Positions 3,376 to 26,113 of a stretch of DNA of 40,738 bases are shown piece after piece. The stretch is from a virus, in the IMG/VR virus record IMGVR_UViG_3300005613_002492, positions 1-40,738 of that record; one strand, 5' to 3'. The translations under genes and the position numbers were made by a program. The notes under the pieces are model-generated. The model had not been told where the DNA came from. It made no database searches and saw nothing but the letters and a program-made list of their open reading frames with translations. Each line of letters begins with the position of its first letter. The first letter of the stretch is position 1.

Positions 3376-3613
3376 TTAATTCATTTAATAAATCATTTAA
3401 CTTATCTATTTCAATTTGAATAGATGACATTCTTTGATAAAATGGGTGGTTTTCTTTTGCCCAAGCAATCAGTTCTGTGTCTTTAGGTTTTGGTTCTAAT
3501 AATACATCTTGTAAATCTTTTATTTCTTTTTTCAAAGCATTAACATCAATAACCCTTTCCTCGGTTTTTATTTCTTTGACTGTGTCTTTGTCTATTGTTT
3601 CGTATGTTATCAT
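3368..3613 (-). CDS. Small helical protein, 81 aa
   Basis: ATG start (MITYETIDKDTVKEIKTEER). Most of the protein is predicted coiled coil, with leucine/isoleucine heptads (VNALKKEIKDLQDVLL and IQIEIDKLNDLLNEL). It overlaps both neighbours by a few bases, showing tight translational coupling inside the fibre gene cluster. It could be a trimerising chaperone or connector for the fibres on either side, but no family is recognised. Confidence 0.6.
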   Translation of the reverse strand: MITYETIDKDTVKEIKTEERVIDVNALKKEIKDLQDVLLEPKPKDTELIAWAKENHPFYQRMSSIQIEIDKLNDLLNELNG

Positions 3614-4560
3614 ATAATTTCTTTATAAGAATAAGTAATTACTTTTCCAGCCGAAGCACAATAAGCATATATTTGTTGTGAAGCACCCATATTCATAGTT
3701 GCTTTTCCGTCTGGTGGTAATAAAATACCGTTAGCATTTGAATTAGCAAATCCCCAATACATATCTGCATCGCTTCCATTGTAAAGAATTAAAATATGTT
3801 TTTCTGTTGAAGCCGTAGTAGGAACTGCATAAGCTGTATTAGCGTTAGTTAGAGTAACGCTTCCATTGCTGCCACTTCCTACTGGATATATTGGTTCACC
3901 AAAGCTATCTACTGTATCACCATCACTATTTTCTATTTTAACTGACTTGTAACCCCTACTACCACCTGAAGTACCACCAAAATTAAAATCTACTGGCTTA
4001 CCCTTACTATCTCGCAGTTGAACTGGTAGCGGATTAGCAATATCAACTCCTGCTAATTCCATAACTCCCCGAACACTCATGTCCCCTTCTGGCCACTCAA
4101 AGTCCATTTTAGGTACATTTACCTCTACTTTAGCCTCTGGTACGTTCACAATAGGCGCTTTAAGCCCTTTAAACGCTGTTTTAAGCGTGTTTTCTATGCC
4201 TTTGGTATCAATGTTCACTTTAGCCTCTGGAACGCTTATATCGGGTATTTTTACCTCTGGAACTGTTATGTTCGGCACCTTAATTTCAGGCACATCAACC
4301 TTAACCGCCTTAATAGCTTCTGATACTGCCTGTATGCTTTTATCAAAGGACTTGCTCTGCTCTACTAAACTTGCATTTATTGTATTAAAAACTTGTTTAT
4401 TTATCTCGCTTTGTTCATATAAAGCCTCAAGCACAGGATTTACAGCCTGCTCTACTAAATCAACATTAAACTCGTGGTCTCTCTGTTGGGCTTCTTTAGC
4501 ACGTTTAATATCTAACGCCCTATCTAAGTCTTTATCTAATTGTCTTAATTGTTCTGACAT
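3610..4560 (-). CDS. Virion shaft protein with VPxxKVP repeats, 316 aa
   Basis: Residues 1-85 are helical and charged. Residues about 88-150 carry a repeating Val-Pro pattern (VPEIKVPNITVPEVKIP and further copies), likely an extended fibrous shaft. Residues 154-192 hold WPEGDM followed by NPLPVQLRDSKGKPVDF. The same block occurs in the 605-residue protein at 5694-7511, so the two are paralogues over this region. The C-terminal 100 residues form a beta-rich domain (TLTNANTAYAVPTTASTEKHILIL) like small head-decoration or fibre-tip domains. A structural role in the virion is inferred. The stop lies within four bases of the next gene's start. Confidence 0.6.
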   Translation of the reverse strand: MSEQLRQLDKDLDRALDIKRAKEAQQRDHEFNVDLVEQAVNPVLEALYEQSEINKQVFNTINASLVEQSKSFDKSIQAVSEAIKAVKVDVPEIKVPNITVPEVKIPDISVPEAKVNIDTKGIENTLKTAFKGLKAPIVNVPEAKVEVNVPKMDFEWPEGDMSVRGVMELAGVDIANPLPVQLRDSKGKPVDFNFGGTSGGSRGYKSVKIENSDGDTVDSFGEPIYPVGSGSNGSVTLTNANTAYAVPTTASTEKHILILYNGSDADMYWGFANSNANGILLPPDGKATMNMGASQQIYAYCASAGKVITYSYKEII

Positions 4561-7514: not shown

Positions 7515-9263
7515 TTAAGCGGTTAATTGGGCTAATTTCTCTTGAATACCTGCTTGAAGCTGTGCTTCTTCAGGAGTTACTTGTGGTTGTGCTGACTGTT
7601 GTGTCTGTCCTGTTTGTGCAGCCTGCTGTTGAGCCTCTTGTTGTTTCTTAGCACCCTCTTCAATCTGTCGCATTTCTTCAGGAGTTACATCTAACAAGTC
7701 AAGCATACGCTTCATAGCAATCTCTCTTAATGATAGGTTGTTAGGGTCTTGAGATGTAACAAATAGCCATTTCTGCATACTCTGAACATTAGCTTGCTCG
7801 GTTTCACTTGAACTTCTAACAATAGGTTTATAGCCATTCTTACTAACCCAATCTGAACTAAAGACTTTCTTAAAGTAAATCTTACCTGAAGCTGCTTCTT
7901 TATAGAGTTTGATGAACTTAGGCGCATTAGCGTGCATTAACTTATCCCATTTATCAGCTAACTCAGTCCAAGCCATACGATAGAACTTAGCCATACTTAA
8001 AGCCCTCTCTTGTGATTTACCTACTAATATCTCAATCTCGCCTAAAGTCTGGGTATTCTTCTCGCCTTGTCCTTTATCAATGCCAGTAGCACCAGTTCCA
8101 CGTTCAATCACACGAGTAACAGCGTTAATAGCGTTGAAAGTATCGTCTAATCCGCCAACTTCTACTGGTTTAAGTACTTTATTGATGTCATCTCCTGGAG
8201 GAGCAGGTAACATAGCGCCTGGTCCAGGGGTAAATGTCTGTGGTGTATAGCCTTGAATAGGCAAGAACCAGTGCATTTGGAAGTTCTTTAGAGTACGATT
8301 CTCTGCCATCTGTGAATACCAGACGTTTATCAGCTTATTACCTGGTCTTACTAGGTCAGCAACTGAATCTGGGTAGATATCATTAGTTTCGGGGTCTTCA
8401 CTCCAAATAACAAAAGGCCAGAAGTCTACACCAATAGCGTCTTCTAGTAATTCGTCCATTAAAACAATGGTATCTTCAGCATATACAACAACTCTACGTT
8501 CAAACTTCTGCTTATCTTTGTTCCAGCGTCTAGTAAAGTGTTCAGTTAGGTTAATAATGCGGTCTCCAGCTGCAAATACACTAAAATCATCAGCATCTAC
8601 ACCTAAAGCCTCTAATCTTTCCATCTTCTTACGCCATTCTTCTTCATTATTGTTAGTCTGGGTGATACCTGGAGGGCTATCAGCCCATACTTTTAGCTCA
8701 TCTTTACCTGATTTAAGGTATCTTTTGTCTGCTAGTATCTCTCTAACGCCTTTCATTATGTTCTGATGTATGACAAAGCGAGCAGTTTCTATGTTCCCTG
8801 TGGTCATAAGTGGGTCAACTAATACATCAAAGACATCAAGCACGTTAATCTTGACCCCTTCATCGGCTATATTTAGCTTTTTAACACTAAAACCGTACAA
8901 AAGTACGTTCTTCTTATCTAAGACATCTACTAACTCTAGCTTATTATCAATAGACATTTGATTCCATATCTCTTGATAGTAGAGTTCTTTCATCTCATCA
9001 CCGCTATTTTCTTTCCAGTCTACTTCTGGTGGGTCATCTATCTTAGACAATAGAGTTTTAATAGTTTCCTTCATCAAAGGAATGTTGATAGCCTGTCGCT
9101 GTGTTAAGCGGTTTGTGCGAACTTTGTTACGATATAGCTCGTAGTTATCATTCCAATCAGGATGCTTACGCAACTGGAGTTCAGCTCCAGCTTTCTTTTC
9201 CTTAGTTAGACGTACCATTTCTTCGTCTAATACCCAAGAGTTTGTGTTTAAATCGTATGGCAT
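7515..9263 (-). CDS. Portal protein
   Basis: A 582-residue protein directly downstream of the terminase pair. Portal features visible: an N-terminal helical region, the central wing/stem region with VLLYGFSVKKLNIADEG and INVLDVFDVLVDP (about residues 115-150), conserved GNKLINVWYSQMAENR (about 310), a proline/glycine-rich tunnel-loop-like segment (TFTPGPGAMLPAPPGDD), then long C-terminal helices ending in a glutamine-rich tail. The portal forms the dodecameric ring through which DNA is packaged and ejected. The size and motifs resemble P22-like or other podovirus portals, though the exact family is not certain. The gene has its own promoter and an intrinsic terminator just upstream. Confidence 0.85.
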   Translation of the reverse strand: MPYDLNTNSWVLDEEMVRLTKEKKAGAELQLRKHPDWNDNYELYRNKVRTNRLTQRQAINIPLMKETIKTLLSKIDDPPEVDWKENSGDEMKELYYQEIWNQMSIDNKLELVDVLDKKNVLLYGFSVKKLNIADEGVKINVLDVFDVLVDPLMTTGNIETARFVIHQNIMKGVREILADKRYLKSGKDELKVWADSPPGITQTNNNEEEWRKKMERLEALGVDADDFSVFAAGDRIINLTEHFTRRWNKDKQKFERRVVVYAEDTIVLMDELLEDAIGVDFWPFVIWSEDPETNDIYPDSVADLVRPGNKLINVWYSQMAENRTLKNFQMHWFLPIQGYTPQTFTPGPGAMLPAPPGDDINKVLKPVEVGGLDDTFNAINAVTRVIERGTGATGIDKGQGEKNTQTLGEIEILVGKSQERALSMAKFYRMAWTELADKWDKLMHANAPKFIKLYKEAASGKIYFKKVFSSDWVSKNGYKPIVRSSSETEQANVQSMQKWLFVTSQDPNNLSLREIAMKRMLDLLDVTPEEMRQIEEGAKKQQEAQQQAAQTGQTQQSAQPQVTPEEAQLQAGIQEKLAQLTA

Positions 9264-9281
9264 AGTTTTAAAATAAAAGAA

Positions 9282-9300
9282 CAGAAGTATAGGACTTCTG
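9282..9300 (-). terminator. Intrinsic terminator/attenuator in portal leader
   Basis: On the minus strand CAGAAGT and ACTTCTG form a 7-bp stem with a 5-base loop, followed by TTCTTTTATTTT. A second hairpin (CTCG/CGAG, 9301-9314) lies just before it. The stem lies between the consensus promoter at 9332-9361 and the portal ATG at 9263, so it would stop most transcripts before the late genes unless antitermination occurs. Confidence 0.65.
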
Positions 9301-9331
9301 CTCGTTGTTGCGAGGTTGTTTAATTGTCTAC

Positions 9332-9361
9332 ATTATACACTATTGCGTTGTAATCTGTCAA
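9332..9361 (-). promoter_or_regulatory. Near-consensus sigma70 promoter for the portal/late operon
   Basis: On the minus strand TTGACA (9361-9356) and TATAAT (9337-9332) are both perfect matches, separated by 18 bases. The predicted start is near 9325, about 60 bases before the portal ATG. The -35 box overlaps the stop region of the upstream 68-residue gene. Confidence 0.75.
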
Positions 9362-9564
9362 GTCTTAAAGTTTCTCCAAGCCATATAATCTAATCTGACT
9401 GCTTGAAAATCCCCGTTCTTATCAAAATGTATGCTAGTTGAGCCATTTCTCATACCTAATAAGCCACCTGTAGTCAGTAAAGCTGCAAAGATATTGTTGA
9501 TTTTATCAACTTCTTGCTTGGTAAAAGTTTCTTCAGTTTCTAATTCAAATATAAGTTTGTTCAT
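9358..9564 (-). CDS. Small hypothetical protein between terminase and portal, 68 aa
   Basis: It starts MNKLIFELETEETFTKQEVD. Its start codon overlaps the last codons of the large terminase gene, indicating translational coupling. It is predicted helix then strand, with no recognised motif; LLTTGGLLGMRNGSTSIHFDKNG suggests a compact alpha/beta fold. The position between terminase and portal is often occupied by small head-assembly or packaging accessories. The function is not known. Confidence 0.6.
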   Translation of the reverse strand: MNKLIFELETEETFTKQEVDKINNIFAALLTTGGLLGMRNGSTSIHFDKNGDFQAVRLDYMAWRNFKT

Positions 9565-10751
9565 ACTCCAATTTCAGAATAATAATTTGGGAGAGGTTGT
9601 GTTTGTTCAGGCATCTTAAAAGTAGGCTTTCTAATCAACTGAACCAAAGCATATCTTACAGCATCCATTGGGTCTGAGAAGTCGTGAGAAGGAACATTAA
9701 GTATGTTTCCGTCTTTATCTGTGTCCCACAAATAGTTTCTATAAGCCTTTATTACATTTACACTTCTCTTAGTCATACTGATAGTTTGGTCTTGTACTAG
9801 CTGTATACCATTTCTAACGCTATCAGCTCCCTTTTCACTACCTATTATATTTACTCCGGCTAATTTAATCTCAGCTATGCTCTTAGGCTCTGCACTGTCT
9901 GCTACTGTGAGTATGCCAGGTGTCTCTTGAGCTAGAATGGTATCAGCTATCTTACTGTTAAGCATATGAGTACCATAAGCTATCTCATCTATAATATATC
10001 CGCCCTGATAATAATATATAGCTACAATAACAGTAGGGTCATTACTATAACCAAAGTCTATTCCATATCTCTCTAATCTAGCGTGTTTAGGTACTTCTTC
10101 TACAATATCCCAGTCTTTATATATCTTGCCTTCTACCTCACCTAATTGTCCTAAGCCGTATACTTTCCACCAGCCTTTACGATTCTGTCTACTCTCTATT
10201 GAATCTATAGTTGCTTGGTCTAAAGCTTCACAATCCTTATAAGTTAGTATGATATGGTCACAATCTCTACTAGGTAATACTTCTGTATAAAACCAGAACT
10301 CATTAGTCGGATTCCAATCTAAGTATACAAAATCTCTAGTACGAACTTCTAATTGGTCAAAAGCATCTAAGGTTATATTGTTAGCCTCATTTATAAATAA
10401 TCTATCACGTCTAGCACCTCTTAGCTTATCAGCCTGGTCTGCTCCAAAGAACTCCATTTGACTGCCTGTTTCAAAAGTATATATCTGGTCTGTAGCATTC
10501 CATCTATCTCGCTTCCAGTAATGATGCTCTTGCATTATATTCTTAAAATCTCTAATAGCACCACGTTTTAAATGGGGAGTACTCTCAGAAACTACACTAG
10601 TTAACTTCTTAACTTTATCAGTTTGAGAAAGAGCTATTAAGTATAACAGTATTGAAATAGTCTTAGATGCTGATGTTCCGCCTTGTACTGCTCTAATTTT
10701 CTTGTTCAATGCTATTATCTTTTTCGTTGCTGTTGTTTCGTAAAATGGCAT
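9561..10751 (-). CDS. terL: Terminase large subunit
   Basis: A 396-residue packaging motor. The ATPase domain has a Walker-A-type loop GGTSASKT at 24-31 and Walker B LFINEA at 118-123. The C-terminal RNase H-like nuclease domain has the expected acidic residues in IDFGYSND (Asp232), VADSAEP (Asp285) and HDFSDPMDAVRYAL (Asp357, Asp362). It cuts concatemeric phage DNA and drives it through the portal. The motif set resembles the PBSX/phage_terminase_3 type. It overlaps the small subunit gene by 59 bases in a different frame, so the pair is translated together. Confidence 0.93.
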   Translation of the reverse strand: MPFYETTATKKIIALNKKIRAVQGGTSASKTISILLYLIALSQTDKVKKLTSVVSESTPHLKRGAIRDFKNIMQEHHYWKRDRWNATDQIYTFETGSQMEFFGADQADKLRGARRDRLFINEANNITLDAFDQLEVRTRDFVYLDWNPTNEFWFYTEVLPSRDCDHIILTYKDCEALDQATIDSIESRQNRKGWWKVYGLGQLGEVEGKIYKDWDIVEEVPKHARLERYGIDFGYSNDPTVIVAIYYYQGGYIIDEIAYGTHMLNSKIADTILAQETPGILTVADSAEPKSIAEIKLAGVNIIGSEKGADSVRNGIQLVQDQTISMTKRSVNVIKAYRNYLWDTDKDGNILNVPSHDFSDPMDAVRYALVQLIRKPTFKMPEQTQPLPNYYSEIGV

Positions 10752-11106
10752 TGTCTAAAGATATTATTGGTTGAGGTAGTTCTTTACCACCTGTAGTTAA
10801 ATCAACTCTGTCTCCGAACTTCTCTCTATTTAGTCTTGATAATGTAAACTTAGTTAAGTCTGCTTTAATTTTATCATCTTCTCCACCTAATAGATTGTCT
10901 AGGTTTTTTAAGGCTTTTACTACCAACTTATTATCTCTTACATTTTCCGACAGCCAATCTAAATCTTTAGAAAGAATAGTTTTAGCGTAATCTTCGGTAA
11001 AACCAGCCTGAATAGCACTCTGATAAGCATTACTAAAAGTCTTACTCTTTGGGTCTAAGTAATTCTTTAAGAACTGAGATTGTCTTGGTGTTAATTCGTC
11101 TGTCAT
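10693..11106 (-). CDS. terS: Terminase small subunit
   Basis: A 137-residue protein with the classic N-terminal opening TPRQSQFLKNYLDPKSKTFSNAYQSAIQAGF and YAKTILS (residues about 6-46), a helix-turn-helix that binds packaging sites. A helical oligomerisation region and an acidic/polar tail follow. It recognises phage DNA and recruits the large subunit. Its ATG overlaps the stop of a 30-residue membrane micro-ORF (ATGA), and its 3' end overlaps terL. Confidence 0.88.
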   Translation of the reverse strand: MTDELTPRQSQFLKNYLDPKSKTFSNAYQSAIQAGFTEDYAKTILSKDLDWLSENVRDNKLVVKALKNLDNLLGGEDDKIKADLTKFTLSRLNREKFGDRVDLTTGGKELPQPIISLDNAILRNNSNEKDNSIEQEN

Positions 11107-11195: not shown

Positions 11196-11263
11196 GTTAA
11201 GTTAGTATACCAGCCATCACCTTGTAGTTCTTTGACTGGATTGTTTGTTAATATATATATCAT
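11192..11263 (-). CDS. Micro-ORF, 23 aa
   Basis: Begins MIYILTNNPVKELQ and ends GDGWYTNLT, then TGA. It shares ATGA overlaps with the gene before it (11260-11667) and the micro-ORF after it. The exact packing argues that it is translated, if only to carry ribosomes through to terS. No family or motif is recognised. Confidence 0.45.
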   Translation of the reverse strand: MIYILTNNPVKELQGDGWYTNLT

Positions 11264-11667
11264 AGTTTTTTCATATAATCCTTCACCATTTCAGCTAGTT
11301 CTCTTAATGATTCTAAGGTTTGTTCTATACCATCAAATCCATTAGGCTCTTCAGCTGTTGGTTTAGCGCCATAAACTTCTCTATCTAATCCAGCAATCTG
11401 TAGTTCTAATCTGTCTCTTTCTGCTTCTAATTTAGTCTGTTCATCTTTAATTCTTTCTATATCTCCTTTAGGTAGTTCATTCTTTTCTTTAGCTTTTTCA
11501 TATTTCTCTTGGATTACAGGTATTTGAGCCTTGATGTTGTCGTAGTTTTGGCGTATTTCTTCCCTTATTTCAAGAGTCTTAAATCTCTTAAACTCTTGGT
11601 CAAGGATTGCATATTTTACGCTTTGTAGTTTTCTTTTGAAGTATTTATACTCCTTACTTTTAAACAT
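11260..11667 (-). CDS. Coiled-coil protein upstream of terminase, 135 aa
   Basis: Starts MFKSKEYKYFKRKLQ. The sequence is strongly helical with heptad patterns over about residues 25-95 (IREEIRQNYDNIKAQIPVI and DEQTKLEAERDRLELQIAGL) and a C-terminal helix ending MVKDYMKKL. It contains no catalytic motif. It separates the carbohydrate gene block from the packaging genes and is coupled to the following micro-ORF. The function is unknown. Confidence 0.6.
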   Translation of the reverse strand: MFKSKEYKYFKRKLQSVKYAILDQEFKRFKTLEIREEIRQNYDNIKAQIPVIQEKYEKAKEKNELPKGDIERIKDEQTKLEAERDRLELQIAGLDREVYGAKPTAEEPNGFDGIEQTLESLRELAEMVKDYMKKL

Positions 11668-11671
11668 AGAG

Positions 11672-12301
11672 TTAGTTGTTAATTCTTATAGGCGGTTTCG
11701 CCTTGATATAATAAGCGTGTTTAGTTTGTAAGCCTTTGTCCCAAGCATCTTTTGGCATCTTCATAATAACTATATCATAAAATCCATTCTTTTTCAATAG
11801 CTTAATCCAATTATGAGCAAAGTATCCTGTTCTTAAATATATATAAAGTCGTTTATACCACTTAGGTTCATAGAACTCAAACAATACTACCTGCTTTCTT
11901 GGTATACGCTTTAACTCTTTTAGGCATTTCTTTATCTTAAATGGTCCAACATAAATATAAGTCATATCAGCTAATAATACATCACAAGACTTGTCTGACA
12001 TTAAAAGGTCTTCAGCTGAACCTACTCTAAATATACCGCCCTTAAAGGTTTTCTCACAAAACTCAATAGCATCTTTGTTGACATCTACTCCACCTAACTG
12101 CTTATTGCCTAGTACAGATATAATATTCTTTAGATTAGCACCACCACCCACACCTATTTCCATTAAAGAGTGCCATTCAAAGGTATTAAGTACTGTTGCT
12201 AGTATATATCTATGCGGATGATTCCAAGTTGAAAGATAAGACTTGTCCCAATCTATAGACCTATTTTTCCAGTATTTAGTTTGTGATTTTGTTGTTTTCA
12301 T
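11672..12301 (-). CDS. Class I SAM-dependent methyltransferase
   Basis: The ATG at 12301 overlaps the stop of the preceding gene (ATGA); a TTG four codons earlier is less likely. About 209 residues. The SAM-binding motif I is MEIGVGGG, followed by LGGVDVNKDAIEFCEK (motif post-I acidic Asp) and VLLADMTYI in the position of motif IV. It belongs broadly to the Methyltransf_11/25 type. Next to glycosyltransferase-like genes and a nucleotide-sugar pathway, a likely job is methylating the sugar or glycan. The actual acceptor is not visible from sequence. Confidence 0.75.
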   Translation of the reverse strand: MKTTKSQTKYWKNRSIDWDKSYLSTWNHPHRYILATVLNTFEWHSLMEIGVGGGANLKNIISVLGNKQLGGVDVNKDAIEFCEKTFKGGIFRVGSAEDLLMSDKSCDVLLADMTYIYVGPFKIKKCLKELKRIPRKQVVLFEFYEPKWYKRLYIYLRTGYFAHNWIKLLKKNGFYDIVIMKMPKDAWDKGLQTKHAYYIKAKPPIRINN

Positions 12302-13215
12302 CTTCTTAACCAATTATAAAGTTGACTATAATATCTTAGTTTCTTTTGTACTTTAAAAGGAAGTTTCCTTAATAATATCTTACGTAGGCTCTTTTTTAAC
12401 TTTAATATATCAACATTCTCTAAACCAAATGTCCTTATAAACCCCCTATCTACTCTTTCACCTTTAAACGGATGTTCGTAATAGGTACTAATATTCTCAG
12501 AGTGAGTGCCAACAAGAAAGCCTCTTTTGTCAATCTGCTTATAATTAAGGCAGTCTTTAACCCATTCATGGCTAGGAAGCGGTGTGCCAACAGGATAACC
12601 AGGTATTGCTACCTTAGTAGCTGTATAATTAGCGTGGTCAAGTGGTTCTATGAATATCTCTTTAGGAAATTTAATAGTATAGAAGGGCGGGTTTGTTTTA
12701 GGGTTATATTCTGAAACATCTAAATTAAAGTAATTACAGATATATCCGTGCTTATATCCGACTGCTTCATAGTTCTCTAACTCTCTCTGTATCTCATCTA
12801 CTGCACCAGCATAATAACAGTCGTCTGAGGGTTGTATAGTCATATAAACATAATCTACATCACCAATATCATCTAACAACTCACCAATAGTGTTGTGTAA
12901 ATTACCTACTAGCCTAGACTTAGCTTCTTCTAACGGATATTTATCGTCGTAAAAACAAATTCCACTAAAAGTAAATATATATCTTAGTCCTGCTTCTGTT
13001 AAATAATCGGCTAAATCAATTACTAAGGGATGGTTGCGTTGAGCCTGGGTAAAGCTAATCCAAACTGTAAAGTTCTGATTAGTCTGTGCTTGTAGACTAG
13101 GCACAACAAACTGTTTAAATATTTTAAGTCTGTTCTTAAACCAGCGTTCTCCTCTAAATCCACCATATAAGCCTAAACCTGTAAAAGGTACATACATGTA
13201 ATGTTTTATGTCCAT
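12298..13215 (-). CDS. Putative rhamnosyltransferase-like glycosyltransferase
   Basis: 305 residues. The segment FKQFVVPSLQAQTNQNFTVWISF (about 33-55) matches the start of the putative rhamnosyl transferase family, where several residues after it a sugar-nucleotide fold begins. The stretch VDYVYMTIQPSDDCYYAGAVDEI contains an acidic cluster in the place of the DxD metal-binding motif of GT-A enzymes. The C-terminus is basic and may contact membrane. It overlaps both neighbours, consistent with one operon. Family recognition is moderate; donor and acceptor are unknown. Confidence 0.6.
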   Translation of the reverse strand: MDIKHYMYVPFTGLGLYGGFRGERWFKNRLKIFKQFVVPSLQAQTNQNFTVWISFTQAQRNHPLVIDLADYLTEAGLRYIFTFSGICFYDDKYPLEEAKSRLVGNLHNTIGELLDDIGDVDYVYMTIQPSDDCYYAGAVDEIQRELENYEAVGYKHGYICNYFNLDVSEYNPKTNPPFYTIKFPKEIFIEPLDHANYTATKVAIPGYPVGTPLPSHEWVKDCLNYKQIDKRGFLVGTHSENISTYYEHPFKGERVDRGFIRTFGLENVDILKLKKSLRKILLRKLPFKVQKKLRYYSQLYNWLRR

Positions 13216-14012
13216 GGGTATTTGTTTAAATTGTTAAGATAATACTCTCTACCTTCTTTGTTAGGTTCTTTTGGTATATTGCCTATATTTTCAGGGAGTA
13301 TAGTATGCGGATAAGGAATAATAGATACTGGCCATTGTTCCATCAATACACTTTTGGCTACAATTTCACTAAATCCTTCTAGCGGTATCATCCTAATACA
13401 ACCTTGCATTTCGGCTATCTCTTTATTCATTTGTTCTTTAGGAACTCTCCCATGTATTATAACATTTTTATTCAATGTTTTAAATGGCTTTGTATTGCCG
13501 TAAAGGTGAAACTCTAAGTCTGAATTTTTACTAGCTATCTTATCAATTTCATACCAACCATAAAGTTCAAAGTCATCTCCACTTACACTTGCATAAAACT
13601 TACCGTTAGGCTTATAACTTGGTTTTATCTTATTAACGTCTCCTAAATAAGATGGAGTTAGAACAGATTCTATTCCCATTTCTGCTAAGGCTTGTCTCTC
13701 TGGTTCGTTTTCACACCAATTCTCGCAGTTCTCATTAAGCCATTTAGCTATTCCTTTATTATCTATCCTTATATCACCTGTATCGTCTAACCAGTAACCA
13801 TTCTGCAGGTGGCGAATATCCGAACCACACCAAAAAACATACCGCTTTCCTTTGTGTCGCCAAATACTGTAGAAATCAGGCAATCCATAACAACCAACAA
13901 ATACAGTAGCCTGACCAATATCCATTTTAGGATTATAAGTCTCTAAATTCCAGGCTTCTTGAAAGGTTCTCTCAAATCCTCCGCCTAATGATGGTGCTAC
14001 TCTTATCTTCAT
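13206..14012 (-). CDS. GT-B-like glycosyltransferase
   Basis: I chose the ATG at 14012 (MKIRVAPSLGGGFERT), preceded by CTAAAAATATG context. An upstream GTG at 14042 is open but would run through a terminator-like hairpin. About 268 residues. GT-B features: an N-terminal Rossmann-like half with VFVGCYGLPDFYSIW and RYVFWCGSDIRHL, and a C-terminal half with FHLYGNTKPF, VIIHGRVPKEQM and GCIRMIPLEGFSEIVAKSVLMEQWPV, the usual glycine/glutamate donor-binding region of GT4-like enzymes. It likely transfers the sugar made by the neighbouring genes. The final residues overlap the next gene by 10 bases. Confidence 0.6.
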   Translation of the reverse strand: MKIRVAPSLGGGFERTFQEAWNLETYNPKMDIGQATVFVGCYGLPDFYSIWRHKGKRYVFWCGSDIRHLQNGYWLDDTGDIRIDNKGIAKWLNENCENWCENEPERQALAEMGIESVLTPSYLGDVNKIKPSYKPNGKFYASVSGDDFELYGWYEIDKIASKNSDLEFHLYGNTKPFKTLNKNVIIHGRVPKEQMNKEIAEMQGCIRMIPLEGFSEIVAKSVLMEQWPVSIIPYPHTILPENIGNIPKEPNKEGREYYLNNLNKYPWT

Positions 14013-14024
14013 ATTTTTAGAAAA

Positions 14025-14047
14025 GGGGAGCATTTTAAACACTCCCC
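14025..14047 (-). terminator. GGGGAG/CTCCCC hairpin with short T-run
   Basis: On the minus strand GGGGAG and CTCCCC pair across an 11-base loop and are followed by TTTTCT. The hairpin lies between the Gfo/Idh gene and the GT-B gene, immediately before the latter's ATG. It could terminate or merely punctuate the transcript. Confidence 0.5.
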
Positions 14048-14054
14048 GTGTTAA

Positions 14055-14831
14055 TCATTTAGACATCAAATACAAATCATGCACTAATTTTAATGATTTG
14101 TACGCTTCTTTTAGGGGAATACCATTACCATCAATGAAATGCAAATAAGCATCTTTGTGTAGGTCTTCATAAGACAAGTTGTCTTTGTTGGATAGATTGA
14201 TTTCTTTACCATCTACCAAAATACTACGATTTGCTTTCTCTCGGCTATCAACAATTTCAATATGGAAAGTACCGCTACCATTTTCAAATAACACTTTACC
14301 TGTAGCCAAAGCATCTGTAATGCTAACATTTTCAATATATTTTGGTTTTCCAAGCAAAAAAATCAAAAGGTCAATATAGTGGATTCCAAGATTAAATAAG
14401 ATTCCACCAGATTTAACAAAGTTACCTTTCCAACTATCCCAATAATGCTCATCTCTGAACATAACAGCTTTAACAAAAACATCCTTTGCTTTCAAATTCC
14501 TTAAAGCGGGATGGTACCTTAATTGTAAAACAGTATTAACCCCATCAAGGTTTTTGATTCCGTTAATGCTTAATGGTTTTTCACAAAGAACTCTTTTACC
14601 ACGCAGCAATGCTTCTCTTGCCATTGTGGCGTGCAAATAATTTGGCGTGCAAATTACAACAACATCAATATTTTCAAAATCAGGATGATTATACATCTCT
14701 AACCAATCAGAAAAATCAGGTTTTTTGTCTAAATCATTATCACAAGTTAAATAAACTTCGTGACCTAAATCTTCTATTGCTTTTTTATGACGATGGTAAA
14801 TGAAACCTTTGCCAATTATTGCAAATTTCAT
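14055..14831 (-). CDS. Gfo/Idh/MocA-family nucleotide-sugar oxidoreductase (WlbA/WbpB-like)
   Basis: 258 residues. The N-terminal Rossmann fold has FAIIGKGFIYHRH, a glycine-containing NAD-binding turn that keeps the Y-x-R-H of UDP-GlcNAc(A) 3-dehydrogenases. CEKPL at 83-87 carries the conserved lysine of the family, and GIHYIDLLIFLLGKP holds the catalytic-region histidine/aspartate. The family oxidises sugar hydroxyls, commonly making a 3-keto sugar for an aminotransferase, which fits the DegT gene nearby. Unlike most neighbours it has a clear AAAGGAG site 6-7 bases before ATG and is bounded by spacers on both sides, hinting at separate acquisition. Confidence 0.8.
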   Translation of the reverse strand: MKFAIIGKGFIYHRHKKAIEDLGHEVYLTCDNDLDKKPDFSDWLEMYNHPDFENIDVVVICTPNYLHATMAREALLRGKRVLCEKPLSINGIKNLDGVNTVLQLRYHPALRNLKAKDVFVKAVMFRDEHYWDSWKGNFVKSGGILFNLGIHYIDLLIFLLGKPKYIENVSITDALATGKVLFENGSGTFHIEIVDSREKANRSILVDGKEINLSNKDNLSYEDLHKDAYLHFIDGNGIPLKEAYKSLKLVHDLYLMSK

Positions 14832-14867
14832 GATATTCTCCTTTCTATGATTAATTATTATTATCCA

Positions 14868-15296
14868 TTATGGATTTTTTACTAAGTTTATAAATTCTAC
14901 CAGTACTGGATGTGGTTTAACTTTGCTTGATTGGTATTCAGGGTGAAACTGGGTAGTTATAATCTTTCCGCTTCTGAATGTATCAGGATAATCCTTTACC
15001 TTGTATTCGTGCCAATAACTTTCATTATTATGCAATCCAACATTTAACTCTGGTAATTTCTCTAACTCATATCCGTTGAATATAGCCATTATCTGATGTC
15101 CAAAACATATTCCCAATAACGGTATATCGTCTGCTATAGCCTTTCCAACTACTTTAAGGGCTTCATCTACCATTTCCTTTTTGTTCTCTCCTGGCCAAGA
15201 GCCAGCTATTATATAACCCTCATAACTTTCCCAGTTAGAATCAATCTCATCTAAAGCCCTGGTTAAACTTGTTTTAAAATCACCGTATATTTCCAT
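14868..15296 (-). CDS. Class I glutamine amidotransferase (glutaminase) subunit
   Basis: 142 residues, shorter than the roughly 190-200 of complete class I GATase domains; the missing part is at the N-terminus. The nucleophile elbow LGICFGHQ gives Cys64, and QFHPE gives His118 and Glu120, so the Cys-His-Glu triad is intact. The form resembles the CTP-synthase/HisH glutaminases. The gene overlaps the N-acetyl sugar amidotransferase gene by 17 bases; such enzymes need ammonia from a partner glutaminase, so the two very likely act as a complex. Confidence 0.82.
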   Translation of the reverse strand: MEIYGDFKTSLTRALDEIDSNWESYEGYIIAGSWPGENKKEMVDEALKVVGKAIADDIPLLGICFGHQIMAIFNGYELEKLPELNVGLHNNESYWHEYKVKDYPDTFRSGKIITTQFHPEYQSSKVKPHPVLVEFINLVKNP

Positions 15297-16293
15297 TTTT
15301 TATTATATTAGCTATTTTAGGATACCAATCTTCTTGTTTAAAGTCGCTGTGTTCGTGCTTAGGATAATTCATTATGTGCTTAAACAGCGTCTTAGGATAC
15401 TCTGGCTTCTTCTCTAATATTTTAAGGGCTTTGTCCCTAGTAATTATTCCAGCTACTATCAGACTTGATAGGTGGGCTTTACGTTTATCAATCCCCCATT
15501 TCTTCGGTAAATAATAGTTTTGAAACCATTTAGTAAACTCTGACTCTTCGTGTTTATCGCCATAATCTTCCCAACCATACTCTTTAATCAGCATTTTTTT
15601 AGCTTCAATCGGATTGTAATCAAGATAATCTAGTAAGTAAACAGTTTCAATTCCGTATGTATGCTTATAATCGTTCCATAACCAAGTACTACAAAGCGGT
15701 AATCCTTCTAATTCTTCGTTCCAAACCGTTTTGTAAACATCTTTAATATGTTCTACATCTCTGGCTTGATAACCCCAACTCTCTGGCATAATACTCTCTC
15801 CGACTGCGTTTCCGCCTGATAATATCCATTTAATACCATATTCTTGAGCCAGTTTATAGGTTGTAGCCATTATAATATGGTCGGTTGGTATCTCTATATT
15901 TTTAAGTCCAGCCATCACAAAGGCTTTCTGTAGCTTGTTAAACTTGTCTAAGTCTATGGTCTCTCTGTAAAATGGTACTTTTAGTTTTTCTACTATCTTT
16001 AAAATATTCTCATCACTTACTCTTGTATTCCAGCCATTATCAACACTAAAACAAAAAGGTCTAAGCCCACGTTTAACAGCTTCGTGTAAAACTGTACTAC
16101 TATCTATCCCACCAGAAAGACCGATAATACAATCGTATTTATCTCCTTTGATTTGTCCAAGCATGGATGACAAATCTAAGTCTTTGGTTTCTTCTAGTGA
16201 TTGTTTAGCTCTTTCGCAGAAATTACAACCGTCTTTAGTAAACTCTATTTCTTCTGCGGTTTCATCCATCACACATTTACTGCATGTTTTCAT
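15280..16293 (-). CDS. N-acetyl sugar amidotransferase (PseA/WbpG-like)
   Basis: 337 residues. An N-terminal zinc-ribbon pair (CSKC at 4-7 and CNFC at 23-26) is followed by the PP-loop ATP pyrophosphatase motif GLSGGIDSSTVLH (about 58-70) and the downstream SGGNAVGESIMPESWGYQARD. These define the family that turns an acetamido group on a sugar into an acetamidino group, as in pseudaminic or B-band O-antigen sugars. Ammonia would come from the adjacent glutaminase. No HisF-like partner is seen. It overlaps the DegT gene by 17 bases. Confidence 0.88.
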   Translation of the reverse strand: MKTCSKCVMDETAEEIEFTKDGCNFCERAKQSLEETKDLDLSSMLGQIKGDKYDCIIGLSGGIDSSTVLHEAVKRGLRPFCFSVDNGWNTRVSDENILKIVEKLKVPFYRETIDLDKFNKLQKAFVMAGLKNIEIPTDHIIMATTYKLAQEYGIKWILSGGNAVGESIMPESWGYQARDVEHIKDVYKTVWNEELEGLPLCSTWLWNDYKHTYGIETVYLLDYLDYNPIEAKKMLIKEYGWEDYGDKHEESEFTKWFQNYYLPKKWGIDKRKAHLSSLIVAGIITRDKALKILEKKPEYPKTLFKHIMNYPKHEHSDFKQEDWYPKIANIIKNGNIR

Positions 16294-17404
16294 AACTTTT
16301 GATTGTTTTAATTATATAATCAACTTCAGCTACAGATAACTCAGGATATATTGGAAGTCTAGCTTGTTCTCTAGCCAATTTTTCAGTTACAGGCAAGCTA
16401 GTGTCTAAAACTTCATAACCTTTTAGCTTATGATTAGGAATAGTATCTCTAATTAAAAGTTCAATTCCATTATCATTCATATATTTTTTAAATTTGTCCC
16501 TGTCCTTAACTCTGATTATAAACTCTTGCCAAGTTTCTCCACTCTTGCGACTAGGAAGTATAATGTCTAGATTTCTTAATCCTCTAAGATATTTTTCAGC
16601 AATTATTTCTCTAGCTTTAATAATCCAATTAATATCTTTAAACTTTACATTCAACATAGCGGCTTGGATATTATCCATACGAGTATTGTGTCCAAAATCC
16701 CAAGTTTCTGGTTCTGGCAACTCTACACCCAATAAAGCATTTTGTGTTATGTTCCAATGATTTCTAAGTAGTAAAATAAGTTCGTAAACATCTTTCCGAT
16801 TTGTAACTATCGCACCATTATCACCCCAACCACCCATCATCTTAGGGGATATAAAAGAAAAAGTACCAACATCACCAAAAGTTCCAGCCATTTTAGAGTT
16901 TTGTGTACTACCTAATGCCTGACAAGCATCTTCAATAATAGGAAGCCCAATTTGCTTTAAGGCATTCATATCAACCATAACTCCTGATAAATGAATTGGA
17001 AGTATAGCTACAGTTTTATCAGTAATAGCCTTTTTAACTAAATCAACATTCATTACACAGGTTTCTTCATCTACATCTACTAGTACTGGCTTCAACCCTG
17101 CGTGTATAATCTCCTGTATGGGCGCTATAAAGACATGTGAGACCGTAATTATCTCATCTCCATCCTTCCATCCATTTATCTTCTTTAACGCCTCTATGGA
17201 CAATTTAAGGGCATCCGTACCAGAATTGACAGCTACTGCATATTTAGCACCAGTAAACTCGCATAAGTTATTTTCAAATTTATCTACATCTTCTCGTAAA
17301 ACAAAGTCACCATTCTCCATACATTTTTGAAAAGCTGTGTTTAAATCGTCTTTTCTCATCTGATAATACCTGCGATATGAATTATTTATAAAATTTACTT
17401 TCAT
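16277..17404 (-). CDS. DegT/DnrJ/EryC1-type PLP sugar aminotransferase
   Basis: 375 residues, the usual length. Visible motifs: AVNSGTDALKLSI (about 58-70) for the PLP phosphate, EDACQALG at 158-165 for the aspartate contacting PLP, and TFSFISPKMMGGWGDNGAIV with the PLP-binding lysine at about 188. These enzymes move an amino group from glutamate to a keto-sugar nucleotide. Substrate would be the 4-keto sugar from the PglF-like dehydratase or the 3-keto sugar from the Gfo/Idh enzyme. The stop and start overlap on both sides indicate co-translation. Confidence 0.9.
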   Translation of the reverse strand: MKVNFINNSYRRYYQMRKDDLNTAFQKCMENGDFVLREDVDKFENNLCEFTGAKYAVAVNSGTDALKLSIEALKKINGWKDGDEIITVSHVFIAPIQEIIHAGLKPVLVDVDEETCVMNVDLVKKAITDKTVAILPIHLSGVMVDMNALKQIGLPIIEDACQALGSTQNSKMAGTFGDVGTFSFISPKMMGGWGDNGAIVTNRKDVYELILLLRNHWNITQNALLGVELPEPETWDFGHNTRMDNIQAAMLNVKFKDINWIIKAREIIAEKYLRGLRNLDIILPSRKSGETWQEFIIRVKDRDKFKKYMNDNGIELLIRDTIPNHKLKGYEVLDTSLPVTEKLAREQARLPIYPELSVAEVDYIIKTIKSYENMQ

Positions 17405-18213
17405 ATGATATAAAAATTATCTTTTTTAATTGCTCTCTCCTTTTCTTCTTTTGTCATTAATTGTTCGGTTAATGTTTCCCCTGGTCTAATCCCTATAATC
17501 TTTGTCGGATAGCCAGGATAATATTTTTCTTTAAAATCCATTATGTTTACAGGTTCACCCATATCAAGTATATAAATCTGTCCGTTCTTTCCTTCTTGAG
17601 CTTTAATTACAAGTTTACAAGCATCAGGTATGGTCATCATATAACGGGTCATATTAGGGTCGGTTATAGTTATTGGTTGTCCTTCCTTTACTTGCCTTTC
17701 CCATATCTCTAATACACTTCCCGAACTTGCTAATACGTTTCCAAATCTTACAGCTACAAATTGTTCTCCAGCCCTAGTTATAAGTCCTTCAGCACACTTC
17801 TTAGTTATCCCCATTATACAGTTAGCATTTACCACCTTATCGGTAGAGATGAAGACAAACTTCTCTAAACATTCCCAACGCTTTGCTTCCGATATTAAAT
17901 TAGCTGTTCCTTGTATGTTAGTGTCTATGGCTTCTTGTGGGTATTCTTCGCTTGGAGTTACATTTTTTAAGGCGGCGGTATGAAATATCACTTGCGGTTT
18001 AAAGTCTTCAAATACATCAGCTAAAGTTTCTTTGTTCCGAATATCACCAGTCCTACTATAAACCCAATATCCCTTTTCTCTTAACTGTTCTCTTAACTGA
18101 TACGTCTTGGTTTCGTCTATGTCTATTAAAAATATTTTATTGTCAGGTGCAAGTTGTCTAGCAAGTTCACTGCCAATACTCCCTGCTCCAGTTATTAAAA
18201 TTCTTTTCTTCAT
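17401..18213 (-). CDS. SDR nucleotide-sugar 4,6-dehydratase (CapD/PglF-like)
   Basis: 270 residues. The Rossmann NAD(P) motif is GAGSIGSE at 9-16. The active site STDKVVNANCIMGITKK (123-139) has Thr-Asp-Lys and a Met where most SDRs have Tyr, the pattern known from PglF/CapD UDP-GlcNAc 4,6-dehydratases. Only the catalytic domain is present, without the membrane segments of full CapD. It would make a 4-keto-6-deoxy sugar for the DegT aminotransferase. The start is ATG; it is the first of five overlapping or closely spaced sugar genes. Confidence 0.87.
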   Translation of the reverse strand: MKKRILITGAGSIGSELARQLAPDNKIFLIDIDETKTYQLREQLREKGYWVYSRTGDIRNKETLADVFEDFKPQVIFHTAALKNVTPSEEYPQEAIDTNIQGTANLISEAKRWECLEKFVFISTDKVVNANCIMGITKKCAEGLITRAGEQFVAVRFGNVLASSGSVLEIWERQVKEGQPITITDPNMTRYMMTIPDACKLVIKAQEGKNGQIYILDMGEPVNIMDFKEKYYPGYPTKIIGIRPGETLTEQLMTKEEKERAIKKDNFYII

Positions 18214-18240
18214 TTTAGTAAATATTTTTTTATATCATCT

Positions 18241-19251
18241 TTATAATCTTATAAAAGCTGCGCCTTTTGTTTTTAATGATTTATTTAATTCTTTTTCGTT
18301 TTTAGGAAATTCTACCCTTATGTTTGGTAGATTTTTAAGCAAGTCCCATTCATTTTCTAACCCCAAGAAATTATGACTAAACCCTAAGAAATCTGCCGCA
18401 CCTGTTCCTATAATTTTTACATCTAACTTGTTATAACACACCTCATCTCTTATAAATTCATACGGTCTACATATAGCAAAAACCGCACCGCTGTATACAT
18501 AGGGTTTCTTTCCTCCTAAAGCCAAACCAGCGGCCACTCCTACCATATTTTGTTCAGCCACACCACAATTTATATATTGCTCTGGGTATTTTTCAATAAA
18601 TGGTTCTAACTTATTATAGCCCAAATCTCCTGTTAAGAGCATAATATCCTTATCTGTCTCTGCTAATTTCATTAGAGCTTTTACAAAATCTACTCTTAAA
18701 TCAACTTTCCATTTAATAAACTCTACTACCTGTTCTTTAGTATTGTTTTTAATACCGTACTTCTTATGAAAATCATTATGGCATTTTTTACAAAAAGTTA
18801 TTCCGTTGTTTATATCCAATCGCAAATCCTTGTTTTCAGCAAAATTTGTTAAATGATGGGCGTGTAATTTGTCACCAACACTCTTACATTTCTGACAAAT
18901 ATATTTATCTCTTTTATAAATATTATTACGCCACAACTTGTATTCCACACTTTTTCTAATCTTTTCATTTGTCGGAGTAATTCCGCCTTTCCAAGAATGA
19001 CATTGTTCTCCTCTAGGAGTATTTTCTTTTGTCCTTAATGATATTTTTCTTCTTATTTCCGCCGAATGTTTATGATATGTTTTTTGTCGTGGTAACTTTC
19101 CTTGGCATACCCGACTACAAGTTCGTGCTGTTTCTTCTCTATATTTTCTAACAGTATATTCTTTGCCACAAATCTCACATTCTTTTTTAATGTGTTCTTT
19201 TTTATTCCAGGAACTAAAACCTTTAACAAATTGTCCTTTTTTATTTCTCAT
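18241..19251 (-). CDS. HNH endonuclease fused to transketolase pyrimidine-binding domain
   Basis: One uninterrupted 336-residue frame. Residues 1-50 carry a small Cys-rich unit (CEIC, TCSRVC); 85-90 the CHSWKGG motif common in HNH homing enzymes; 119-157 the HNH core with CxxC (119, 122), His132-His133 and CKKCHNDFH (154-161). From about 183 the sequence becomes the C-half of transketolase: DLRVDFVKALMKLAETDKD, GDLG at 198-201 and the catalytic Glu223 in NCGVAEQNM. The usual transketolase C-terminal domain is absent after the pyrimidine domain. The start overlaps the stop of the transketolase N-half (ATGA). Both halves look intact, so this seems to be an endonuclease inserted at the junction. 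Confidence 0.82.
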   Translation of the reverse strand: MRNKKGQFVKGFSSWNKKEHIKKECEICGKEYTVRKYREETARTCSRVCQGKLPRQKTYHKHSAEIRRKISLRTKENTPRGEQCHSWKGGITPTNEKIRKSVEYKLWRNNIYKRDKYICQKCKSVGDKLHAHHLTNFAENKDLRLDINNGITFCKKCHNDFHKKYGIKNNTKEQVVEFIKWKVDLRVDFVKALMKLAETDKDIMLLTGDLGYNKLEPFIEKYPEQYINCGVAEQNMVGVAAGLALGGKKPYVYSGAVFAICRPYEFIRDEVCYNKLDVKIIGTGAADFLGFSHNFLGLENEWDLLKNLPNIRVEFPKNEKELNKSLKTKGAAFIRL

Positions 19252-19898
19252 AATTCACTTAATGCTTGATTTAATTGTTCTTCTGTAAGATTACAGTAAT
19301 GCGAATGCACCGAATCTTCTAGAAAAGACACCCCTGCTCCTTTAATAGTTTTTACATTTTCAAAATTAGGAAATGTTTTCTTATAAAAATCAAAAGCAGT
19401 ATCTAAATTAAGTACATTATTAGTTCTATCAAGAGCCTGTATTCCATTATTATCACAAATTACATATAGATTATTAAGTTTATGTTGTCCAGCAAAAAGA
19501 GCCGCTTCATAAGTTACACCCTCATTTAATTGTCCATCTGATATTAAACAATAAACATTTCTATTTCTATCAGCTAGTGCTAAACCGACAGCCACTGATA
19601 AGCCCATACCGACAGAGCCTATACTATGTATAACTCCTGGTACTTCCTTAGAACACTCTGGATATTGTCTTAAATACTCTACTAACTTTTCTTTAGAAAA
19701 ATATCCCAATTCTGCCAAAATGGCATAGTAGCAAGAACTTCCACTGGCTTTAGAAAACAAAAAAACATCATCAGGTTTGATGACGTTATCAAATAAATCA
19801 ATTAGTATATCTACACAAGATAAAGCACTGCCTAGATGGCAAGCTCCTGCTTTGAATGATGACTGTAATATATCTCTTTGTATTTGTTTTTTATTCAT
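19248..19898 (-). CDS. Transketolase N-terminal half (thiamine diphosphate-binding)
   Basis: 216 residues, somewhat short for a split transketolase N subunit (commonly about 270). Conserved features: CHLGSALSCVDIL (about 19-31), IHSIGSVGMGLSVAVGLALA, and the ThDP/metal motif SDGQLNEG ... CDNNGIQ, where the usual GDG is SDG. It ends in HSHYCNLTEEQLNQAL, the normal end of this half. With the fused C half it could form a ketol-transferring enzyme that extends or branches a sugar. Within a phage sugar operon it is unusual. A repeated leader motif (TTAATCATAAACC) precedes the ATG. Confidence 0.85.
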   Translation of the reverse strand: MNKKQIQRDILQSSFKAGACHLGSALSCVDILIDLFDNVIKPDDVFLFSKASGSSCYYAILAELGYFSKEKLVEYLRQYPECSKEVPGVIHSIGSVGMGLSVAVGLALADRNRNVYCLISDGQLNEGVTYEAALFAGQHKLNNLYVICDNNGIQALDRTNNVLNLDTAFDFYKKTFPNFENVKTIKGAGVSFLEDSVHSHYCNLTEEQLNQALSEL

Positions 19899-20232: not shown

Positions 20233-20874
20233 TTAAAGTAAAGTTTGTTGTCTTAGTCTTTGTCTAGCAATTTCACAGTATTTTTCACTTATATCAATTC
20301 CTATAAATCTGCGGTTTAAGTCTTGTGCGGCTTTAGTGGTAGTCCCAGAACCATTAAACGGGTCAAATATAATATCAGTTTCTTTTACACTACCTCTAAG
20401 TAATAACTTTTTCCAGAACTTAATTGGTTTAGGGCAACTATGTTCTTCTTTTAGCCATTTTTCTGTTGTTTCAATATGTTCAATACTATCTGGTCTTAAA
20501 CCCAATTTATTTTCTAAATATGGGTCATTGCCATAAGCCAATATTGGCTGCCAAGTAGTAAATCCCCAACTATTCATACCAGCTCCAGATTTTATAAACC
20601 AAGCTAAAATCCATTTTGGTTTTGGATAAATAAATAAGTTTGTATGACCAGTAGTAATCAAAACCCTCTTACTTACCCTTAAAATCTCTGGCATAACTTT
20701 GTCTATCATTTTTTTAAGATTTTCTGGTGTATCATCATAAGTATCATAATTCCAGCCAACTCCATAAGGTGGGTCAGTCAAAACTAAATCCACACACTTA
20801 TCAGGCATTTGTTTCATGAACTCTAAACAGTCGGCTTGATGAACTTTATTTATTATGTCTTCTATTTTATACAT
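20233..20874 (-). CDS. DNA methyltransferase (DPPY-type, beta order)
   Basis: 213 residues. The catalytic motif IV TDPPYGVGWN is at about 33-42. The SAM-binding motif I region FDPFNGSGTTTKAA and IGIDISEKYCEIARQRL is near the C-terminus, so the order (IV before I) is that of beta-class N6-adenine or N4-cytosine methyltransferases (N6_N4_Mtase family). It is short but holds all core motifs; the target-recognition region is small. No partner nuclease is adjacent, so it likely protects phage DNA from host restriction. The leader TTTAACCATAAACC precedes the ATG. Confidence 0.9.
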   Translation of the reverse strand: MYKIEDIINKVHQADCLEFMKQMPDKCVDLVLTDPPYGVGWNYDTYDDTPENLKKMIDKVMPEILRVSKRVLITTGHTNLFIYPKPKWILAWFIKSGAGMNSWGFTTWQPILAYGNDPYLENKLGLRPDSIEHIETTEKWLKEEHSCPKPIKFWKKLLLRGSVKETDIIFDPFNGSGTTTKAAQDLNRRFIGIDISEKYCEIARQRLRQQTLL

Positions 20875-25609: not shown

Positions 25610-26113
25610 ATGTGGAAAGATATAAAAGGATTTGAGAAACTTTATCAAATATCAAATAAAGGTCAGATAAAATCATTAACAAAAAAAAGAGGTTTTTATC
25701 AAGCCAAAGAGATGATTTTAAAACAAAAAATAACAAAGTTTGGTTATGCAAATATTACTTTATTAAAAAACAATAAACCAAGTTTTTGTGTAGTTCATCG
25801 TTTAGTAGCAGAAACATTTATACCAAATCCAGAAAACAAACCACAAGTTAATCATAAAGATGGAAATAAATTAAATAATCATGTTTCTAATTTAGAATGG
25901 TGTACTTGCTCAGAAAACATGAAACATGCTTATAAAAATAATTTAAGAGATAGTCATGGAGAAAATCACTCTCAAAATAAATTAACAAATAAAGATATTA
26001 TAAATATTAGAAAAAGCAAAGAAAAGGGTTGTAATTTATCTAAAAAGTATAGTGTTTCTCGTTCTTCTATAAGCAGAATAAGAAAAGGAAATAGTTGGAA
26101 GCATCTATTATAA
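25610..26113 (+). CDS. HNH homing endonuclease (NUMOD4-HNH type)
   Basis: 167 residues. It opens with WKDIKGFEKLYQISNKGQIKS, a clear NUMOD4 DNA-binding motif, then the HNH core VHRLVAETFIPNP ... VNHKDGNKLNNHVSNLEWCT (about 65-105). A C-terminal helix-turn-helix (NKDIINIRKSKEKGCNLSKKYSVS) finishes it. Such free-standing enzymes cut unoccupied sites and spread. It carries its own promoter and is more AT-rich than its neighbours, as expected for a mobile gene. Confidence 0.9.
   Translation: MWKDIKGFEKLYQISNKGQIKSLTKKRGFYQAKEMILKQKITKFGYANITLLKNNKPSFCVVHRLVAETFIPNPENKPQVNHKDGNKLNNHVSNLEWCTCSENMKHAYKNNLRDSHGENHSQNKLTNKDIINIRKSKEKGCNLSKKYSVSRSSISRIRKGNSWKHLL

Follow-up and report, generated by a model that had tools for sequence, protein, structure and literature searches.

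In bacterial O-antigen loci, for example that of Pseudomonas aeruginosa O5, 3-acetamidino sugars are made by the WbpB/WbpE/WbpD/WbpG-HisH-HisF route. Among viruses, Mimivirus has a nine-gene glycosylation cluster for UDP-viosamine, with a rare amino sugar in the virion fibres, according to the sections of PMC4691112 cited here, and mycobacteriophages have glycans on proteins of the capsid and the tail tube (summarised in the cited section of PMC12619734). Split-gene transketolases of the miharamycin and amipurimycin clusters have been proposed, but not proven, to branch keto sugars (review, PMC12247030). Here we describe a cassette of ten open reading frames (ORFs) at positions 11672-19898, minus strand, of the IMG/VR virus record IMGVR_UViG_3300005613_002492, of which the whole stretch of 40,738 bases was analysed (the window). 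We tentatively regard it, at just short of an even chance, as a glycosylation system that the phage itself encodes and whose donor sugar can be exchanged, most likely acting on the virion. It would thus be a variant of virus-encoded autonomous glycosylation, a kind already known. Directly supported are the enzyme families, their conserved catalytic residues, the conserved cluster, the exchange of modules and the co-variation of the transferases with the capsid.

As in Mimivirus, a virus-encoded 4,6-dehydratase, a pyridoxal phosphate (PLP) aminotransferase, glycosyltransferases and sugar-modifying enzymes lie together; Mimivirus differs in its protist host and giant genome, and the cited sections of PMC4691112 mention neither an amidotransferase nor a transketolase. 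Compared with mycobacteriophage virion glycosylation, the cassette adds a nucleotide-sugar pathway, and its acceptor is putative. In order of transcription it encodes tkN (one subunit of a split transketolase), an HNH endonuclease fused to tkC (the other subunit), an SDR, a DegT aminotransferase, WbuX, a glutaminase, a Gfo/Idh dehydrogenase, a GT-B glycosyltransferase (gt2), a GT-A-like glycosyltransferase (gt1) and a methyltransferase (mt). All except gt2 have significant family matches in Pfam or NCBIfam. The ORFs are tightly packed upstream of the terminase genes, overlapping or separated by at most 36 bases, and none of those in the window contains a membrane-helix-like stretch. The genes that the earlier note had placed together on one strand were all found where it had put them, in open frames on the minus strand, and its proposal of a phage-borne amino- or amidino-sugar cassette is supported by the enzyme families and the conserved cluster.

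Searches of IMG/VR with WbuX, gt1 and the portal protein as queries revealed the cassette beside the same portal gene in more than 20 diverged contigs from many metagenomes, with the clustering, same-strand packing and catalytic residues recurring. Recurrence in more than 20 independent contigs is far beyond chance. Among 29 portal-bearing records, WbuX was present in 20, tkC in 19 and gt1 in 21; some of the records without a cassette are fragments cut near the portal, and two (L047 and L090) lack it despite approximately 10 kb of sequence upstream of the portal. In a set of 22 contigs, partly chosen by their cassette genes, gt1 and mt were as universal as the portal (22/22). The earlier note had named inactivation or scattering of the genes in relatives, and an assembly chimera, as grounds for dismissing the block. 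The genes are open and clustered in most relatives, and a chimera or a recent transfer was rejected in view of the many contigs and metagenomes, the similarity of the G+C content, overall and at third codon positions, to that of the flanking phage genes, and contig G319, in which wbuX is split across both contig ends. The latter therefore suggests a circular map. WbuX, gt1 and portal had no match in approximately 50,000 cultured-phage records, in which the terminase did match, and no earlier report of this cassette was found in an open-literature search. The earlier note's view that so full a set is rare in phages agrees with the cultured-phage records that were searched; in this uncultured family, however, the set is the rule.

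Pairwise protein p-distances, compared in Mantel tests, divide the cassette into two halves. The transferase genes gt1, gt2 and mt, together with WbuX and a small conserved charged protein encoded between mt and the terminase genes (11260-11667, minus strand), track the portal with r between 0.56 and 0.78, and the major capsid protein with r between 0.71 and 0.87, in tests that are coarse, on p-distances that saturate, among contigs partly selected by cassette genes and in comparisons chosen after seeing the data. Correlation with the major capsid protein was 0.87 for gt1 and 0.84 for both gt2 and mt, and after controlling for the portal it was still 0.74, 0.68 and 0.72, respectively (p 0.0005), versus 0.06 for SDR and 0.04 for tkC. 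For tkN, tkC, SDR, the aminotransferase and the glutaminase, correlation with portal or capsid reached at most 0.30. Between the window and contig G003, identity is 74% for the portal, 68% for gt1 and 76% for SDR, 39% for the aminotransferase and 31% for tkN. Judged by these distances, the cassette comprises a conserved module, predicted to serve attachment, and a putative donor-sugar module that is exchanged between phages. Of the three uses suggested in the earlier note, namely a change of host receptors, a block on competing phages and decoration of the virion, the co-evolution data favour the last.

Most of the donor-sugar enzymes could be assigned closely from family profiles and invariant residues. 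The SDR (17401-18213), of the UDP-GlcNAc 4,6-dehydratase type (PglF/FlaA1/CapE family), matches Pfam Polysacc_synt_2 (E 9e-81); in a profile search its nearest solved structure is WlaL 5bju (E 3e-75), and it is nearest to WlaL/PglF, with the TDK/MxxxK residues kept across relatives. The DegT-family PLP sugar aminotransferase (16277-17404; Pfam DegT, E 6e-84) has an invariant Lys188, presumably the PLP lysine, and its profile bits (QdtB 312, 2oga 305 and WbpE 283 versus 143 for 2fn6, with ArnB likewise disfavoured) indicate an enzyme nearer to the C3 aminotransferases QdtB and WbpE than to PseC. The 3-dehydrogenase-like enzyme of the earlier note (14055-14831; Pfam GFO_IDH_MocA) is specifically WbpB-like according to its matches, the nearest solved relatives being WbpB 3o9z/3oa2 (E 9e-44) and the next family following at 2e-18; across the cassettes of relatives, it alternates with a second SDR. 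The N-acetyl sugar amidotransferase WbuX (15280-16293) scores 211.6 bits with NCBIfam TIGR03573, above the family cut-off, and its PP-loop SGGxDS and four cysteines are invariant in 17 sequences. The adjacent class-I glutaminase (14868-15296; Pfam GATase), which presumably supplies ammonia to WbuX, has invariant Cys64 and His118 and a nearly invariant Glu120 across relatives; its family profile scores best against CTP synthases and their glutaminase domain (E 2e-25), which identifies it as CTP-synthase-like rather than HisH.

The assertion that this mix is not a known pathway is unsupported, because the WbpB-like dehydrogenase, the WbpE/QdtB-like C3 aminotransferase, the WbuX/WbpG amidotransferase and, in most relatives, an LbH acetyltransferase fit the known 3-acetamidino-sugar route, as does the presence of a class-I glutaminase. 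The predicted phage pathway differs from that route in several respects. It has a glutaminase of the CTP-synthase kind, and HisF was not detected among the cassette ORFs with Pfam and NCBIfam, whereas HisH and HisF genes were both recognized, by reading of the ORFs, in a bacterial O-antigen-type locus with related enzymes (L038). A 4,6-dehydratase-type SDR takes the place of the 6-dehydrogenase, a split transketolase is added, a PF01943 flippase is lacking in the 16 long records examined, and neither a motif scan of the window nor Pfam and NCBIfam searches of its cassette ORFs detected an LbH acetyltransferase.

The two transketolase subunits find their match in the split enzyme of Carboxydothermus. 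For tkN, the thiamine-diphosphate (ThDP; PP) subunit (19248-19898; Pfam Transketolase_N), the best solved relative of the family profile is 6yak, the N-terminal component of a split transketolase (E 1e-70); across 12 relatives, G122, D149 and N151 do not vary and D121 hardly does. The pyrimidine-domain (Pyr) subunit tkC (18241-18717; Pfam Transket_pyr) has an invariant Glu55, read as the catalytic glutamate. Both subunits, the ThDP and metal residues and the catalytic glutamate are therefore present, while the third, C-terminal domain is missing, because the tkC family profile covers the 341-residue chain 6yaj only from residue 35 to residue 191, where it ends. This domain is missing in the relatives examined too, in which the subunits mostly have 154-169 amino acids and are shorter where cut or truncated. 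The miharamycin and amipurimycin clusters likewise have a two-subunit transketolase beside keto-sugar enzymes (PMC12247030), but the phage subunits differ from these in lacking the third domain. A split transketolase had been noted earlier; its two subunits are indeed there, but the second ORF (18241-19251) also holds the HNH endonuclease (18718-19251), fused to tkC.

In the transferase half, gt2 (13206-14042) had no match in Pfam or NCBIfam. Its AlphaFold model (pLDDT 92) superimposes on BshA with a VIA Z of 17.9 over 254 residues (root-mean-square deviation 3.5), with comparable Z values for SenB and further GT-B enzymes, which identifies the modelled protein as a GT-B (GT4-like) glycosyltransferase; its true start is likely the ATG at 14012. 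The product of gt1 (12298-13215) matches Pfam Rhamno_transf (PF11316) above the cut-off over a short stretch only, and the best Foldseek matches of its AlphaFold model (pLDDT 86) are the glycosyltransferase 6p61 and the UGGT catalytic domain with modest TM, a GT-A-like fold match that is weaker than the GT-B match of gt2. Both glycosyltransferase-like proteins of the earlier note are thus borne out. The closest named family of the S-adenosylmethionine-dependent methyltransferase mt (11672-12313) is the pseudaminic-acid-associated methylase, below the cut-off. The small protein at 11260-11667, which recurs with the cassette and co-varies with the capsid and glycosyltransferases, had no PHROG match.

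We propose that the sugar-making half would convert UDP-GlcNAc to a rare UDP-amino sugar. In the suggested order of reactions, the SDR would yield a 4-keto-6-deoxy sugar, which would gain a 3-amino group through the WbpB-like dehydrogenase together with the DegT enzyme; WbuX, served by the CTP-synthase-like glutaminase, would turn an N-acetyl into an acetamidino group. More speculatively, the split transketolase might add a two-carbon branch to a keto sugar. The product is probably a 6-deoxy N-acetylhexosamine with a 3-amino or acetamidino group, possibly carrying the two-carbon branch. Presumably expressed late, the two glycosyltransferases and the methyltransferase would attach and methylate it; the likeliest acceptor is a virion protein, for example that of the capsid, and the decoration may serve shielding or adsorption. 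Same-strand overlapping genes beside packaging genes and the occurrence of glycosyltransferase genes in a phage genome support virion glycosylation. In its boldest form, the proposal is of a widespread, uncultured phage family that decorates its capsid with a novel branched, amidino-bearing 6-deoxy amino sugar, using a minimal two-domain transketolase on a nucleotide sugar and a CTP-synthase-derived glutaminase that serves an amidotransferase, with donor genes swapped like serotype genes and attachment genes evolving with the capsid; we consider this full version rather improbable. If true, phages would own a path from UDP-GlcNAc to a rare sugar together with the attaching transferases, as in giant viruses, and devote about 8 kb of records of about 40 kb to it. 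The conserved attachment genes and the exchangeable sugar module suggest that phages have an equivalent of serotype switching in bacteria. The cassette would also offer minimal enzymes with which to examine two possibilities, the branching of keto sugars by transketolases and the supply of ammonia to an N-acetyl-sugar amidotransferase by a glutaminase of the CTP-synthase type.

Several observations weigh against virion glycosylation as proposed. The co-variation with the capsid could reflect a shared, vertically inherited backbone, for which a neutral control is lacking, as no identified non-structural or replication gene is shared widely enough. The window glutaminase is about 21 residues shorter than its relatives, after the catalytic cysteine, and three relatives carry wbuX beside gt2 without a glutaminase. 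An LbH acetyltransferase family is present in 19 of 22 related contigs and lacking in the window. Lastly, a PF02397 phosphoglycosyl transferase gene lies just upstream of tkN in five of 16 long relatives. Enzymes of this class normally initiate lipid-linked surface glycans, and the gene thereby points to the main alternative, in which the infecting phage has the sugar put on lipid-linked or lipopolysaccharide glycans of its host, altering receptors or keeping other phages out. We regard such modification of the host envelope as a serious but clearly less likely explanation. It accords with the related enzymes of the O-antigen-type locus L038, with an N-terminal hydrophobic helix on the small accompanying protein of four relatives (L002, L004, L005 and L006; missing from the window copy) and with the membrane helix that one of the five PF02397 proteins keeps. 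The other four lack an N-terminal membrane helix, with no clear upstream remnant. The envelope explanation is further opposed by the absence of PF01943 flippases from the 16 long records and of membrane proteins from the window cassette, and by the transferase genes co-varying with that of the capsid. An integrase was found in only two of these 16 records, and there is consequently little sign of lysogenic conversion.

Two other explanations were considered. Pentose-phosphate genes of cyanophages are thought to support host metabolism. As transketolase is a pentose-phosphate enzyme, it might, with the glutaminase, feed host pentose-phosphate or nucleotide metabolism, the sugar genes being incidental. 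This would agree with the distances of tkN and tkC, which vary together (r 0.78) and independently of the other well-sampled cassette genes (at most 0.26), but it is quite unlikely given that the third transketolase domain is missing in the relatives examined, that the transketolase subunits head the sugar operon, and that the glutaminase, where present, directly follows wbuX. Phage glycosyltransferases often act on DNA (as summarised in the cited section of PMC12619734), and a DNA-methyltransferase-like ORF lies upstream of the cassette (20233-20874), so the sugar might instead be placed on phage DNA. This we hold to be the least likely of the explanations; a thymidylate-synthase-family enzyme (PF00303) was found in none of the 16 long records, and hence there is no obvious modified base to glycosylate.

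Similar genes occur elsewhere. An unrelated phage (L013:9995-19812) has WbuX together with a DegT enzyme and a methyltransferase, and it also encodes an anchorless PF02397 protein and a ThDP enzyme of two subunits, which by sequence reads like E1 alpha/beta. This would represent a similar sugar cassette that was assembled independently, and the recurrence of a ThDP enzyme there suggests that this enzyme is part of the sugar pathway. Helix-less PF02397 proteins that keep the D-E dyad were seen at L131:1771-2256, L133:1884-2366, L134:2105-2611, L135:1608-2102 and L013:14315-14785; a soluble form of this normally membrane-bound class would be unusual. A scan of a genome collection, which relied on exact short peptide patterns and therefore misses distant relatives, yielded one phage-like contig in an Elusimicrobia metagenome-assembled genome and two bacterial loci (34-35% identity). 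One of the two, L038, is of the O-antigen type that the earlier note had advised searching. With no more than these matches within the reach of the pattern scan, an origin of the cassette from a standard O-antigen locus was rejected. Among 294 genomes of the phylum Elusimicrobia, the portal was found in one, which is the metagenome-assembled genome itself.

The HNH endonuclease at the tkN/tkC junction (Pfam HNH; PHROG HNH families) has a mobile distribution consistent with a homing endonuclease: a site that holds an HNH ORF in some relatives has none in others. The HNH ATG overlaps the tkN stop codon, and the HNH frame stays open into tkC. A start at the first ATG of this frame past the junction would remove about 12 residues from the beginning of the domain relative to homologues. 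In most relatives tkN and tkC adjoin without an HNH gene, and the HNH-tkC fusion as a query found no relatives in viral records. HNH ORFs also occur at the tkN/tkC junction and within wbuX in L004, between gt1 and mt in L003 and between mt and gt1 in L010, and L002 has an HNH-like ORF, named by reading, between gt2 and gt1. At L004:9259-10855, wbuX is broken by the HNH ORF, which is in frame with the first approximately 37 wbuX codons. A group I intron around the HNH genes was rejected, as no Rfam match was found in the window or L004. A second HNH gene of the window (25610-26113, plus strand) belongs to PHROG families that differ from those of the cassette HNH.

The window further encodes the portal (7515-9263), the large terminase (9561-10751), a presumed small terminase named solely from its position (10693-11106) and the major capsid protein (39609-40733). 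Large terminases of differing types occupy the same place in L002, L004, L007, L015 and others and track neither portal nor capsid, and thus seem to have been exchanged between lineages. A scan for terminator-like sites found 13 versus 7.5 expected (standard deviation 2.9), one of them a hairpin with a T-run between the Gfo/Idh gene and the likely gt2 ATG (14025-14047), and promoter-like sites were at chance level; being about twice expectation and at chance level, respectively, neither was used as evidence. A perfect TTGACA-18-TATAAT promoter match followed by a terminator-like hairpin is located directly before the portal (9279-9361, minus strand). Downstream of the portal, L002:13291-14631 and other homologues of window ORF 3610-4560 contain proline-spaced repeats (IPEIKVPEVKVP), and proteins of this type are possible candidates for a fibre or a glycan acceptor.

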